51,417 nucleotides of DNA from Alphaproteobacteria bacterium (GTDB lineage: Bacteria; Pseudomonadota; Alphaproteobacteria; CAAGCB01; CAG-977). The notes under the pieces are model-generated. The model was not told where the DNA came from. It searched no databases and saw only the letters and a program-made list of their open reading frames with translations. A program made the position numbers and the translations under genes. How positions within the stretch are numbered: position 1 is the first letter of the stretch; each line of letters begins with the position of its first letter. Where the stretch lies: assembly GCA_024413465.1 (NCBI GenBank), contig JAKSVU010000012.1, forward strand, positions 1 through 51,417. Reading direction: 5' to 3'. Below, piece after piece: positions 2,024-5,975 of the stretch.

Positions 2024-2122
2024 AGTAGATAACTCCCGTAAAATAAACAGTGGATACTATCCTATTCTTCTCTTGTACCCACTTTTATCCATTAGCATAC
2101 ATCACAAATATAAATATTTTAT

Positions 2123-2147
2123 GTAACTTTTTTCATTTTTTTTCGTT
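2123..2147 (+). promoter_or_regulatory. candidate ECF-type promoter of the double-glycine peptide
   Basis: GTAAC (2123-2127), a 16-base T-rich spacer and CGTT (2144-2147) resemble alphaproteobacterial ECF sigma promoters (GGAAC, 16-17 bases, CGTT). The same pattern with the same spacer and a similar T-rich composition occurs at 4639-4663 before the ECF sigma operon. The match is by eye; AT-rich DNA makes chance matches to the spacer trivial but not to both boxes. Confidence 0.35.
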
Positions 2148-2183
2148 ATACTTTATGAAGGAATACCCGTAAGGAAAATTATC

Positions 2184-2342
2184 ATGACAAACAAATCTGA
2201 AAATAAAGTTGAAAAAAATATTGAACTTAACGAGGAAGATTTATCCACAATTACTGGTGGAACAACTTACAATTTGACAAAAGATTTTCCTTCCAAAGAC
2301 GTCGTCATTGATCCAAAAAATTTCCTTCAAGAAATCAAATAA
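2184..2342 (+). CDS. small double-glycine leader peptide (bacteriocin/microcin-type precursor)
   Basis: A 52-codon gene. Residues 14-26 read ELNEEDLSTITGG, which fits the classic double-glycine leader (conserved hydrophobic and acidic positions before GG) recognised by C39-peptidase ABC exporters. Cleavage after GG (residues 25-26) would release a 26-residue core starting TTYNLTKD and ending FLQEIK. The core has no Cys, so no disulfide or thioether rings are expected, and it is mixed-charge and not strongly amphipathic. AAGGA sits about 8 bases before the ATG. It lies between the divergent autotransporter and a downstream operon. No C39 exporter, immunity protein or modification enzyme is in the window, so the exporter must be elsewhere. 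It could be a bacteriocin, a signalling peptide or a small secreted effector. The leader motif is directly visible; export and activity are inferred. Confidence 0.72.
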   Translation: MTNKSENKVEKNIELNEEDLSTITGGTTYNLTKDFPSKDVVIDPKNFLQEIK

Positions 2343-2384: not shown

Positions 2385-2460
2385 CTTTACCTCGCCCTGT
2401 AGGGAGAGGACATCTTTTGTTTGTGAGTTTGGACGAACTTTACAAAAGATTGGTGAGGGG
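2385..2460. repeat. palindromic REP-like element
   Basis: A GC-richer island in AT-rich DNA. It holds a short hairpin (CCTC g CCCT / AGGG a GAGG, 2390-2409) directly followed by a 9-bp inverted repeat, ATCTTTTGT (2412-2420) with ACAAAAGAT (2442-2450), and ends GGTGAGGGG. The CCTC.CCCT.AGGG.GAGG...GTGAGGGG layout resembles proteobacterial repetitive extragenic palindromes. Only one copy is in the window. The first hairpin could also serve as a weak terminator of the peptide gene. Confidence 0.4.
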
Positions 2461-2517
2461 CTTAATATCACAAAAAATTTCTTTTTTTTCACAAAGAGTT
2501 TATAAAAAACAACTTTT

Positions 2518-2585: not shown

Positions 2586-3620
2586 ATGAAATTAAACCGC
2601 ATGTTAATTTGTGCGTTTTTATGGGCTGTCACCGTATTTTTATTTACGGGACGCGTCTTTAATATCTTTGATGAAGAAGCAAATAATTTGAATAATGAAC
2701 GAATTAAAATTCAAATTTTTGAAACACGTGATTTTATTCAAAATCAGCTTGATTTAGGACAATCTTTAAATACGCTTAATTCATTGCCAACCTTATTTGA
2801 AAAACAGGTCGAAATGAATAATGAAATGGTTTCTTTATTCGTCGCCGATGCTCAAAATTCAAAAATTTTATTCAGCTCTATCAAAACTCAAGAAGGATTG
2901 TCTATTCCTTGGATTGATAAATGTAAAATTCACAATTCTTTTTTCAAAGACACTTTTGAAACAAAAACCATTATCGGAACGGGAATTTTCAACGTCTATA
3001 ACAAACCTGTAGGTTGTGTCGGGGCTGAATATACGACTGAAAAATTAGAAGAAGTTCGCAATAAAATGGTGAACACTTCTTCTCACTATGCTTTTTATTT
3101 ATTTACGCTAGGATGTTTACTTTTCTTCTGTTTTTATGTAACACCGACCGTCAAAAAATACATTAAAAATTATAAAACTTATTTGATTGTTTCATTCGTC
3201 GTTTTACTTCTTTCTTTTCCACATTTTATTGGAAAAATGTACGTTAATTTCGAAGAAAATCTGCATCCAATCATTGAAACAAAAATCCAGACTATTTCTA
3301 ATAAAATCAGGTTTATCATTCAGTTTGCCGTTGAAAAAGACGTTCCATTTAATTCAATTCCAGAAGCCGAAACTTTTTTAGATAATTTCAAAAAACAAAA
3401 TCCAGAAATCGCTTTTATTTTATTAACAGATAAAAGTGGGCGTGTTTTATACGAAGCTGGAACAGCAGAAAGTGCTTTCAAGTCAGATTCAAAAACAGGA
3501 CAAATCAGTCTACGCAAGGGATATTACAACGCTGCAGGTCAAATCATTGTCAATAATTCCAGCATAGGTTGGCTTCAAATAGGTGTCAATGAAAGGTATT
3601 TACGTGAAAAAGTTTTTTAG
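2586..3620 (+). CDS. membrane sensor-like protein without output domain
   Basis: 344 residues. A transmembrane segment at about 8-24 is followed by a roughly 140-residue extracytoplasmic region, then two adjacent hydrophobic segments (about 160-187 and 198-218), then a second region of about 125 residues that contains LLTDKSGRVLYEAG, reminiscent of PAS/Cache ligand-sensor strands. This is the input half of a histidine kinase, cyclase or chemoreceptor, but it ends at GWLQIGVNERYLREKVF with no HAMP, kinase or GGDEF domain. AGGAG lies 8 bases before the ATG. Its 3' end overlaps the next gene, which encodes a periplasmic substrate-binding protein, so the two are co-translated and may act together. 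It may be a degenerate kinase or a membrane partner of the binding protein. The exact family is not recognised. Confidence 0.6.
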   Translation: MKLNRMLICAFLWAVTVFLFTGRVFNIFDEEANNLNNERIKIQIFETRDFIQNQLDLGQSLNTLNSLPTLFEKQVEMNNEMVSLFVADAQNSKILFSSIKTQEGLSIPWIDKCKIHNSFFKDTFETKTIIGTGIFNVYNKPVGCVGAEYTTEKLEEVRNKMVNTSSHYAFYLFTLGCLLFFCFYVTPTVKKYIKNYKTYLIVSFVVLLLSFPHFIGKMYVNFEENLHPIIETKIQTISNKIRFIIQFAVEKDVPFNSIPEAETFLDNFKKQNPEIAFILLTDKSGRVLYEAGTAESAFKSDSKTGQISLRKGYYNAAGQIIVNNSSIGWLQIGVNERYLREKVF

Positions 3621-4584
3621 CTTTATTCTTTGTTTATTTTTTATTTGCCCAGCAAAAGCCGAACAAAAAAATATCCTGATGGTTTTGTGGGATGGGTGTG
3701 AAGAAGCCTGTCGTGGTTTTCAAGATTATGTAGCTTCAAATAATATGGACGTAAAAATATCCGTCATTGACGTAAAAAAAGATCCCAAATTAATAGATGC
3801 TGCTATTGAAACAGTTCACAAAACTCATCCCGATTTACTCGTTACTTGGGGAACAATGGTTTCCGTAAAAATGTTAGGAACAGAACAACAAGCCTTACAA
3901 GAAGGATATTCCATTTTAGTTCCTGCCGTTTTTATGGTCGTTTCTCAACCTGTTGAAAGTGGGCTTGTTTCTTCATTTGTTTCACAAGGCAGAAATTTAA
4001 CCGGTGTTTCACAAATGCCTTCGATTTCCGAACAAATTCAAGCAGCTAAACAGTTTTTCCCTTTCAAAAAAATAGGAATTATTTATAACCCGTCAGAAAA
4101 AAATTCTGCAGACGTTGTCAATGACGTTAAAAGTTATGCTTCTTTGTTAGATTATGAAGTTTTTGAAAAACCTCTTCCTGTCAATAAAAATGGGCAAATT
4201 GAACCAAAAGCAATTGCTGGATTGGCTTATGAACTTGCAGAACAAAAAGTAGATATCTTTTTCTTGCCACCTGATTTTTCAATCAACGAAAATAGGGATT
4301 TATTTTATCAAACAGCTGTTTCTTTAGGTATTCCAATTTTTTCAGCTTCTGAAGGTGCTGTTCGTCATGGCAATGCTTTGTTTGCATATACGCACAAATA
4401 CTACAATATCGGACAAATAGCTGGTTATAAGGCAAAAAAAATTTTAGTAGATGGCATTCCTGCTTATAATATTCCAATCGAAACCCCTATTCGCGGTATT
4501 TTCGTCGTTAATATGGACGTTGCAAAGCAATTCAACGTTTATCCACCTTTATCCCTTTTATCAATTTCAGAATTAATCAATTAA
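3589..4584 (+). CDS. ABC transporter substrate-binding protein (PF04392-like), orphan
   Basis: About 331 residues with a signal peptide (lysines, then FFSFILCLFFICPAKA, cleavage before EQ) and a two-lobed periplasmic binding fold. KNILMVLWDGCEEACRGF opens lobe one; DLLVTWGTMVSVKMLG and SRGRN-like SQGRNLTGVSQMP are typical of the YcjN/TrpX-type ABC_sub_bind family. Start choice is open: ATG 3589 has only a short-spaced AGGTG, while GTG 3604 has AAAGG at 7 bases and gives a shorter, cleaner signal peptide; GTG 3583 is also in frame. All of them overlap the end of the upstream membrane protein. No permease or ATPase is next to it, so it is either served by a distant transporter or works as a sensory ligand-binding protein with its neighbour. 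The substrate is unknown; relatives bind amino acids or nucleobase-like compounds. Confidence 0.75.
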   Translation: MKGIYVKKFFSFILCLFFICPAKAEQKNILMVLWDGCEEACRGFQDYVASNNMDVKISVIDVKKDPKLIDAAIETVHKTHPDLLVTWGTMVSVKMLGTEQQALQEGYSILVPAVFMVVSQPVESGLVSSFVSQGRNLTGVSQMPSISEQIQAAKQFFPFKKIGIIYNPSEKNSADVVNDVKSYASLLDYEVFEKPLPVNKNGQIEPKAIAGLAYELAEQKVDIFFLPPDFSINENRDLFYQTAVSLGIPIFSASEGAVRHGNALFAYTHKYYNIGQIAGYKAKKILVDGIPAYNIPIETPIRGIFVVNMDVAKQFNVYPPLSLLSISELIN

Positions 4585-4638
4585 AACACCTAAAACCATT
4601 CACTTGAAGATAATTTTCAAAATTTTTTTTATTTTTTT

Positions 4639-4663
4639 GTAAGTTTTTTTTATTTTCATCGTT
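4639..4663 (+). promoter_or_regulatory. candidate autoregulated ECF promoter
   Basis: GTAAG (4639-4643), 16 T-rich bases and CGTT (4660-4663), about 36 bases before the ATG of the metal-sensor-like gene. ECF sigma operons are commonly autoregulated, and the same arrangement occurs at 2123-2147. The -35 element is one base off in its last position. Confidence 0.35.
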
Positions 4664-4699
4664 TATAGGTGTGTAGTTCAAAACAAAAGGAGACCTGTC

Positions 4700-5197
4700 A
4701 TGAATAAAAAATTATATATTTTACTTGGTGTATCTTTGGCATTAAACTTTGCTCTTGGTGGATATGTTGCGGGAAAAGCAACAAATCCTGTTCCTCCGCA
4801 AAGACCACATTTCGCAAAAATGATGCCTCATGGGAAGCATTTCCAATTTATTAAAAAAGCATTTGCTCAAAATGCAGAAGCAATGAAAGAGGCTCATAAA
4901 GGCGTTATCACAGCCCTTAAAGCAGGTGATGAAGCTAAAATTCGTGAAGCTTTAAAAGTTGCAAGTGAAGTTCGCCGCAAAATGGATGATCAAATTCAAG
5001 ATAAAATGGTTAAAGACTTTATGAACATGAGTGATGAAGAAAAAGCAAAATTCATCAAAAAATTCGAAGGTAACGGAATGAAACCTCATAAATGCCACAA
5101 AAAATTTAAAGGAAAACATCATCACCACAAACATGGAAAAATGATGCCACCTGCACCTGCTGAACAAGAAACATTACCTGCTCCAGACGCAGAATAA
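4700..5197 (+). CDS. periplasmic heavy-metal sensor-like protein (CnrX/Spy-like)
   Basis: 165 residues. An N-terminal membrane anchor or uncleaved signal (YILLGVSLALNFALGGYVAG) is followed by an all-alpha periplasmic region (about 50-125), rich in Lys/Glu/Ala, that fits the Metal_resist/LTXXQ group to which CnrX, Spy and CpxP belong. The C-terminus is His/Lys/Met-rich (CHKKFKGKHHHHKHGKMM) and then Pro/Glu-rich, a plausible metal-binding tail. AGGAG precedes the ATG. It is followed by an ECF sigma factor after 12 bases and a small membrane protein, which matches the sensor, sigma and anti-sigma content of the cnrYXH nickel/cobalt system in a different order. It probably senses metal or envelope stress in the periplasm; metal identity is not readable. 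Confidence 0.75.
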   Translation: MNKKLYILLGVSLALNFALGGYVAGKATNPVPPQRPHFAKMMPHGKHFQFIKKAFAQNAEAMKEAHKGVITALKAGDEAKIREALKVASEVRRKMDDQIQDKMVKDFMNMSDEEKAKFIKKFEGNGMKPHKCHKKFKGKHHHHKHGKMMPPAPAEQETLPAPDAE

Positions 5198-5209
5198 GGG
5201 AATAAACTT

Positions 5210-5743
5210 ATGCAAGATACTGAAATTGATTTAATGCACAAAATTGCCAAAGGAGATGCTAAATCATTTCAGTCCTTGCTGATTTTATATGAGCGTCCTG
5301 TATTTAGCTACGTTTGGCGATTAACGATGGATATTCCTTCTGCCGAAGATATAACACAGGACGTTTTTTTGAAAGTTTGGAAAAACGCAAGTTCTTGGAA
5401 ACCAGATTTTCAATTAAAAACTTGGTTGTATAAAATTGCATACACAACCTTTATTGATAAAATAAAAACAGAAAAAACGACTGCAGAATTACCTGAAAAT
5501 TTAGTAGATAATTCTCCCACAGCAGAACAAGACTTTATTCAAACAGAGCAAGAAACACGCGTTAAAAATGCTATAAAAGCTCTTCCAGAACAACAACGTC
5601 AAGCCTTAATTCTGTGTTATTATCAAGGATTAAAAGCTAAAGAAATTGCAGAAATTATGAATATGAAAACAAATGCCGTAGAAGTGATGATTCATCGTGC
5701 AAAACAAACTTTAAAAGATATGTTAGGAGGTTCCCATGAATGA
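5210..5743 (+). CDS. ECF (extracytoplasmic function) RNA polymerase sigma factor
   Basis: 177 residues, the usual ECF length. The sigma-2 region is seen at about 10-80 (SAEDITQDVFLKVWKN is the conserved 2.2 segment), and the sigma-4 region at about 115-170 has a helix-turn-helix (LPEQQRQALILCYYQGLKAK then IAEIMNMKTNAVEVMIHRAK). It directs RNA polymerase to a regulon until bound by an anti-sigma factor. It lies 12 bases after the metal-sensor-like gene and overlaps the small membrane gene by 8 bases (GGAGG for the next gene lies inside it). Autoregulation through the GTAAG/CGTT site at 4639 is likely but inferred. Confidence 0.92.
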   Translation: MQDTEIDLMHKIAKGDAKSFQSLLILYERPVFSYVWRLTMDIPSAEDITQDVFLKVWKNASSWKPDFQLKTWLYKIAYTTFIDKIKTEKTTAELPENLVDNSPTAEQDFIQTEQETRVKNAIKALPEQQRQALILCYYQGLKAKEIAEIMNMKTNAVEVMIHRAKQTLKDMLGGSHE

Positions 5744-5975
5744 TACTGAATTAAATTCATTGTTAGACAATTGGAAAGTTCCAGAAACACCTTCTTTATC
5801 CAATAAAATCATGTTGCAAATTTTAAGTGAGCAAAGGTTCTGCTTTATGTTCTGGAAAGTTGTCGCTGTGTTATCAGTTGCTTTCTTTTTTGGTGGATTT
5901 TTCGGCTTTGATGCTGGAATTACCGAAGCAAACGCAACAGAATATTTTAACTCTATGTTCGTTGATTATATGTAA
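5736..5975 (+). CDS. small single-pass membrane protein, probable anti-sigma factor
   Basis: 79 residues. A short cytoplasmic N-terminus (LLDNWKVPETPSLSNKIMLQ) is followed by one transmembrane helix (FWKVVAVLSVAFFFGGFFGF) and a short outside tail. The size and layout match CnrY-type anti-sigma factors, which trap the sigma factor with a short N-terminal segment and contact a periplasmic sensor. It overlaps the ECF sigma gene by 8 bases, the normal position of an anti-sigma gene. No zinc-binding HxxxCxxC motif is present, so it is not a ZAS-type anti-sigma. Function is inferred from context and topology. Confidence 0.65.
   Translation: MNDTELNSLLDNWKVPETPSLSNKIMLQILSEQRFCFMFWKVVAVLSVAFFFGGFFGFDAGITEANATEYFNSMFVDYM

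Follow-up and report, generated by a model that had tools for sequence, protein, structure and literature searches.

The window analysed here, the whole contig JAKSVU010000012.1 (51,417 nucleotides) of an alphaproteobacterium of the CAG-977 lineage, carries at 2184-2342 on the forward strand a gene for a peptide of 52 residues with a double-glycine leader, here called P0001. P0001 is probably one member of a dispersed set of leader peptides that has a single NHLM-type exporter on another contig (C47), an extracytoplasmic function (ECF)-type promoter and a place in an antagonism or secretion regulon. The original prediction, made from the window alone, had described an orphan double-glycine leader peptide. 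A C39-exported peptide was supported by the leader, by the presence of a C39 exporter in the genome and by the co-occurrence of both, while the term orphan turned out to be wrong at genome scale: the source genome (G000; 2.03 Mb, 130 contigs, the window being its contig C24) has a single exporter operon, and the paralogues of P0001 number in the dozens.

The reading frame is present as predicted, and the last base of the ribosome binding site lies eight bases ahead of the start codon. The double-glycine motif ELNEEDLSTITGG (2223-2261) has all C39 consensus positions (Table 1), and the predicted 26-residue core indeed contains no Cys. A frame of 52 codons is short, and P0001 could be taken for a chance open reading frame (ORF) with a leader-like string. 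This is refuted in practice, its probability being negligible, by two leave-one-out tests that both ranked P0001 first in the window. A hidden Markov model of the leaders of 19 paralogues, run on the 1390 stop-to-stop frames of the window, scored it at 32.0 bits (E 5.1e-9; runner-up E 2.8), and a promoter matrix from 20 other G000 sites, scanned over both strands, gave its promoter 23.7 bits (next site 3.4). The bacteriocin signal family TIGR01847 matched P0001 with 14.7 bits in one search and 15.8 bits in another (cut-off 15.7). Neither the nitrile-hydratase-like (TIGR03793) nor the Nif11-like (TIGR03798) leader was among its NCBIfam matches at E ≤10. No match was found for the core among solved structures or for P0001 in plasmids, 22 pattern matches in viral contigs included no relative, and no orthologue of the core was found.

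With P0001 as query, paralogues were found on many contigs of G000. A leader profile of 20 sequences, all from this genome, gave 46 matches at E ≤10, of which 36 reached E ≤0.001; the weakest matches are partly false, e.g. a metabolic enzyme at C39:35386 (contig C39). The 36 leaders with a clear end are spread over 16 contigs, and their last two residues are AG (21), GG (10), VG (3), GA (1) and GS (1). The dominance of AG, GG and VG indicates that the cleavage site is conserved as xG and not strictly as GG. L-12, L/M-7 and I/V/L-4 are jointly present in 34 of these leaders and in 21 of 22 leaders of G002, a genome of the same genus. The DNA identity of 25 anchored paralogues is 0.58–0.81 per leader window, with one exception of 0.47. 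Across the cleavage site it falls from 0.73 over the six bases that end the leader to 0.37 over the following six and to 0.26–0.31 beyond. The conserved unit stops at the cleavage site, and past it similarity is at chance level.

Arbitrary cores behind a duplicated promoter-leader cassette, i.e. a decaying family with no selected function, would fit the lack of any sequence common to the cores, the recurrence of stretches such as HNNGCDKN in several of them and the frameshifted copies at A-tracts. Most copies, however, keep promoter, ribosome site and leader intact, the exporter is kept in two divergent species, and cores resembling a flagellin helix recur in both; we consider such a decay distinctly unlikely. 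In the leaders G000 C42:28005, C37:43043 and C47:1492 and G002 C11:3159, A6–A8 tracts in ATGGAAAAAACAGAAAAAAA... vary by one A, and a few such copies are out of frame, be it by phase variation, decay or assembly error.

The statement that no exporter is near P0001 holds for the window, and the genome encodes exactly one C39 peptidase (C47:18766-19158, E 2.5e-34), located inside an ATP-binding cassette (ABC) protein of 728 residues. The operon on C47 further encodes an HlyD-like adaptor, a second ABC protein and a protein of 373 residues that lacks a Pfam match. The adaptor passed the cut-off of TIGR03794 (171.5 bits vs 156.2), TIGR03796 was the full-length best match of the peptidase-ABC protein (825.2 bits; cut-off 853.3) and TIGR03797 the best family of the second ABC protein (657.5 bits; cut-off 709.4). 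Judged by these NCBIfam names, the operon is an export set of the NHLP/NHLM type. In an alignment of 15 proteins its C39 domain keeps the catalytic Cys, His and Asp.

The nearest named relative of the C39-ABC protein is encoded by a Lentisphaeria metagenome-assembled genome of yak caecum (58.6% identity), whereas the G002 counterpart is 47.0% identical, which suggests horizontal transfer. The Lentisphaeria exporter locus has the same gene order; it also includes an ECF sigma gene, and a peptide gene in it (L117:9896-10084) looks by eye like a subfamily of the G000 peptides (C13:38257, C13:38528 and C47:1975; ..AAFDLPAPEMP..ELTDEDMEYLAAA). This likeness points to a common origin or to transfer. 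Contamination of the assembly as the source of C47 is not favoured: ParE on this contig is 68% identical to ParE of G002, and peptides with the family's leader and promoter are encoded on C47 as well.

The exporter type, together with a conserved leader and hypervariable cores as laid out in the text available of PMC2887384, would also fit precursors of ribosomally synthesized and post-translationally modified peptides (RiPPs) of the NHLP/Nif11 kind, with the modifying enzyme elsewhere in the genome. Furthermore, the Lentisphaeria locus L117 has an adjoining radical-SAM-like gene (motif present) and, by reading, a Nif11-like ORF. In G000, none of the six exporter-locus genes tested with NCBIfam was a modification enzyme (cyclodehydratase, LanM); this test did not extend to the rest of the genome, and no genome-wide search for LanM or YcaO was made. 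In 32 stretches around peptides or the exporter, with 115 long frames in 195 kb, the radical-SAM motif occurred once, in a glycyl-radical-activase-like gene, and the P0001 core lacks Cys. Modified peptides are therefore improbable in our view. A secreted arsenal whose peptides stay unmodified is favoured by the element shared with type VI genes (see below) and by the finding of no modification enzyme close to the exporter.

G000 was compared with 40 relatives, including G001, G002 and G003 of the same genus. Leader matches at E ≤0.001 were present in G000 (36) and G002 (24), and the other 39 genomes had none. C39 domains were found in 13 of the 41 genomes (one each in G000, G002 and the same-family genome G005, and in ten more of the class), with no match in G001 and G003. 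A C39 exporter alone thus does not imply this peptide family. Within the genus, two of four genomes have exporter, peptides and promoter element together, and two have none of the three.

The family element TGTAAC-N16-CGTTAyA lies about 35 bases ahead of the start codon in most peptide genes. The pattern TGTAACN16CGTTW has 34, 25, 0 and 0 sites in G000, G002, G001 and G003 (reversed controls 4, 5, 6 and 3), and 3, 4 and 0 sites in the same-family genomes G004, G005 and G009 (reversed controls 0, 3 and 1). We inspected 41 sites in G000, 34 from this pattern and seven from another search, and 25 sites in G002. Peptide genes were assigned automatically to 25 of the 41 G000 sites and by inspection to five more (two truncated at contig ends, one frameshifted, one outside the regular expression, one misframed). 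The remaining sites precede two Hcp genes (identical where compared), three VgrG-like genes, one small lipoprotein gene and one 47-residue ORF without GG; one further site lies at a contig end and three are without sequence. The G002 sites belong to 12 peptides, Hcp genes, one VgrG-like gene, one PAAR-like gene and three small membrane proteins, the rest being without assignment.

Hcp was recognised by Pfam in both genomes (2.3e-30, 2.0e-28), and Pfam also gave a baseplate-hub domain (1.1e-18, 1.2e-13) and ClpV-like AAA domains; PAAR (3.4e-5) and VgrG OB/DUF2345 matches were below cut-off, and the other Hcp copies and the VgrG-like gene on contig C40 were judged from sequence alone. The Hcp, VgrG-like, PAAR-like and ClpV-like genes are located at or beside the promoters of the regulon. 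Three G002 loci behind the same element (C12:66772, C12:73072, C47:7963) encode related one-helix membrane proteins of 36–39 residues ending in ...LASL, possibly an immunity or export accessory.

The halves of the element make an inverted repeat at many sites, so that TGTAAC-N16-CGTTACA could also be the operator of a dimeric regulator (half-sites TGTAAC/GTTACA). This appears unlikely: the dyad symmetry is lost wherever the right half reads CGTTATA, as it often does, the fixed 16-base spacing and a start codon some 35 bases further on suit a promoter, and a related element stands ahead of an ECF operon. Bacillus subtilis SigX, with TGTAAC-N17-CGAC, provides an example of an ECF consensus.

The operon in question lies 3 kb downstream of P0001 and includes an ECF sigma factor gene, which is our candidate for the regulator. 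By eye, TGTAAG-N16-CGTTTA also precedes the ECF operon of G002, and in G003 and G001 the ECF operon is preceded by TGTAAG and CGTAAG, respectively, each 17 bases from CGTTTA. A common −35/−10 pair with fixed spacing precedes the regulon members and, as a variant, the sigma operon. Between G000 and G002 the ECF factors share 79% identity, against 46–47% with those of G001 and G003, and the ECF gene of G002 adjoins the peptide cluster of this genome. A second ECF factor of G000 (C1:324823) is less likely to be the common regulator, because it has no close copy in G002, whereas the window-type ECF factor is present in both. This second factor has no close copy in G001–G011 and is 47% identical to the ECF factor beside the Lentisphaeria exporter; within G000 it may still act as the regulator.

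The cores (34 in G000) have a median length of 32.5 residues with a range of 16–65. The core of the peptide at C54:43852 matches Flagellin_C (PF00700, last 29 positions) above cut-off with E 5.9e-6 and also flagellin structures (E 9.6e-6), and the match opens at residue 27, immediately past the GG. On the strength of these matches its assignment as a flagellin C-terminal helix appears solid. Flagellin-like tails ending in LLQ or FLQ, with weaker support, were found at C54:44138 in G000 and at C12:44383 and C19:25238 in G002. The flagellin match was absent from shuffled cores, which matched six families at E ≤1 (lowest E 0.0035), vs 12 for the real cores. Resemblances of further cores to protein fragments (NlpC/P60, E 0.15; start of a glycosyltransferase, E 0.29) are at noise level and were rejected. 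Recognition of the C-terminal 35 residues of flagellin by NAIP5 is the subject of PMC5938239, as far as the available part of that paper shows.

Small, hydrophilic cores and a weak leader likeness to the ComC family (PF03047, 14.3 bits, below the cut-off of 20.4) would also be expected from ComC-like pheromones, which are sensed by receptors and are not weapons. Dozens of unrelated cores would, however, require dozens of receptors, no receptor gene was recognised beside P0001, and the promoter element is common to peptides and type VI genes. We hold a pheromone role to be very unlikely.

Table 1 Features around P0001 in the window
Feature	Position	Strand	Basis or remark
Promoter element TGTAAC-N16-CGTTATA, ECF-sigma-like	2122..2150	+	best site of the window with a matrix excluding it
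Ribosome binding site AAGGA	2171..2175	+	read from sequence
P0001 leader, ending ...ELNEEDLSTITGG	2184..2261	+	L-12, D-8, L-7, I-4, G-2, G-1
P0001 core, 26 residues, TTYNLTKDFPSKDVVIDPKNFLQEIK + stop	2262..2342	+	net charge 0, no Cys
Interspersed repeat, hairpin potential	2390..2466	.	3′ end ACAAAAGATTGGTGAGGGG (2442-2460); fold z −1.85, weak
Related element TGTAAG-N16-CGTTTAT, ahead of ECF sigma operon	4638..4666	+	second-best site of the window
Metal_resist-like periplasmic protein, first gene of ECF operon	4700..5197	+	weak Pfam match, 20.2 bits vs cut-off 29.2
ECF sigma factor, proposed as regulator of the peptide genes	5210..5743	+	79% identical to the ECF factor of G002
Putative anti-sigma factor, a small protein with a single hydrophobic stretch	5736..5975	+	suggested by position; no Pfam match

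The genes following P0001 (2586-3620, without Pfam match, and 3583-4584, an ABC_sub_bind protein) fit the prediction that no immunity gene is near, and the former is also present in both genus genomes without such peptides (G001, G003). Divergently from P0001, an autotransporter beta-domain protein is encoded at 113-2023 on the reverse strand (Pfam 1.1e-32). The end of the interspersed repeat, ACAAAAGATTGGTGAGGGG, has one copy in the window, 100 bases past P0001, and other copies in G000 at C42:28270, C47:22029, C53:7036, C54:129797, C54:132652, C58:6623 and C58:7280. In 29 G000 stretches (205.7 kb, window included), most of which were picked around peptides, nine of 12 repeat copies lie ≤400 bases from a leader, a zone that makes up 12.9% of the bases (binomial 1.5e-6). 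The repeat may mark a unit that is copied or swapped.

According to the mechanism proposed for P0001, the C39 domain would bind the conserved leader helix through L-12, L-7 and I-4 and cut past G-1, and the C47 exporter would set the 26-residue core free. Transcription would start at the ECF-type promoter, most likely by the ECF sigma factor of the window, which would also drive the type VI hcp, vgrG and PAAR genes. If one sigma factor drives the type VI genes too, the peptides would be part of an antagonism or secretion regulon. A co-regulated, promiscuously exported and hypervariable peptide arsenal is the most likely reading. The computations show the gene, its leader and family, the exporter with its catalytic residues, the common promoter element, the pattern of presence and absence across genomes and the type VI genes behind this element. 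We infer that the peptides are cut and exported, which sigma factor acts on them and that they serve in competition or host contact; antagonism or host contact on the one hand and all other roles combined on the other have roughly even chances.

Several observations weigh against this reading. Many leaders have AG, VG, GA or GS as their last two residues, and some carry frameshifts. By eye, no peptide-type promoter is present in the 159 bases ahead of the first gene of the exporter operon. In the only C39 domain of G002 (C18, L104:6582-8744), Ser replaces the catalytic Cys and Gln replaces the His; among the 15 aligned proteins Cys is missing in G002 alone, and His is missing in one other (L128). 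The G002 peptides retain AG/GG ends, with 24 leader matches remaining beside this degenerate domain, and cleavage there would be unneeded or done by something else. The element of the ECF operon differs from the peptide element at two positions (C/G in −35, A/T in −10) and scores 3.4 bits vs 23.7 for the P0001 promoter, and G001 and G003 have an ECF factor of the same kind yet no peptide-type promoter sites. No immunity candidate specific to peptide-bearing genomes was recognised in the window between 2343 and 4600. The 34 G000 cores are hydrophilic (mean grand average of hydropathy −0.75) and close to neutral (mean charge +0.38), in contrast to typical pore-forming bacteriocins. Their hydrophilic nature and the lack of immunity genes make bacteriocins of the classical pore-forming kind less likely. 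The ratio of nonsynonymous to synonymous substitution rates (dN/dS) over the few comparable cores gave no decisive signal.

More tentatively, it is possible that one ECF sigma factor drives a type VI machine together with about 40 peptides which are alike only in promoter and leader. Their cores would be swapped and maybe switched singly by A-tract slippage, some of them being captured pieces of common bacterial proteins, for example the C-terminal helix of flagellin, a target of host flagellin receptors, and one sister exporter would act as a peptidase-dead carrier. If the arsenal is real, the genus spends about 40 genes on one hypervariable set of exported peptides with no known modification enzyme, and a single promoter element links this set to type VI secretion. 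It would provide a compact test bed for the diversification of a peptide arsenal and for the cargo range of a promiscuous C39 exporter. The recurrent flagellin-helix cores raise the question whether flagellin-like peptides are exported on purpose. The case also illustrates how a small gene that looks isolated may belong to a large regulon.

The exporter type and the leader/core layout are already known. In the parts of the literature available to us, no description was found that joins double-glycine peptides with Alphaproteobacteria, type VI secretion or flagellin, or an ECF sigma factor with type VI secretion and bacteriocins. Within the same scope no precedent was found for a short leader lacking a nitrile-hydratase or Nif11 domain, for the scale of the family, the type VI link, the flagellin-helix cores or the peptidase-dead sister exporter. 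In comparison with bacterial flagellin (PF00700), the peptide at C54:43852 carries the C-terminal helix, and not the whole protein, on a double-glycine leader predicted for type I export. Class II microcins and other double-glycine bacteriocins of Gram-negative bacteria have a double-glycine leader and a C39 exporter with an HlyD-like adaptor. The P0001 family resembles them in all three traits; unlike in these systems, P0001 has no adjoining immunity gene, and the family cores are hydrophilic, numerous and dispersed.

For precursors of the LahA/prochlorosin type, the text available of PMC6363468 describes recognition by LahT via Leu-12, Leu-7 and residue −4, followed by the double Gly motif. 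The P0001 family has these recognition positions in common with them, as well as one putatively tolerant C39 protease for many unrelated cores, but its leaders often end in AG instead of GG and a lanthipeptide synthase was not seen in the stretches read. The closest parallel in layout comes from the NHLP/N11P precursors, for which Haft et al. (2010; PMC2887384), in the part available, report the TIGR03794/03796/03797 exporter, conservation ending at a GG-type motif, hypervariable cores and paralogue counts of 12 NHLP in Pelotomaculum and 29 N11P in P. marinus. A probable three-part exporter of this type, the end of conservation at a GG-type motif, the hypervariable cores and the many paralogues per genome recur in the P0001 family. 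Unlike in NHLP/N11P, its leader is short and without a nitrile-hydratase or Nif11 domain, modification enzymes were not found beside its exporter, its genes are scattered over at least 16 contigs, and its promoter element is also found at type VI genes.
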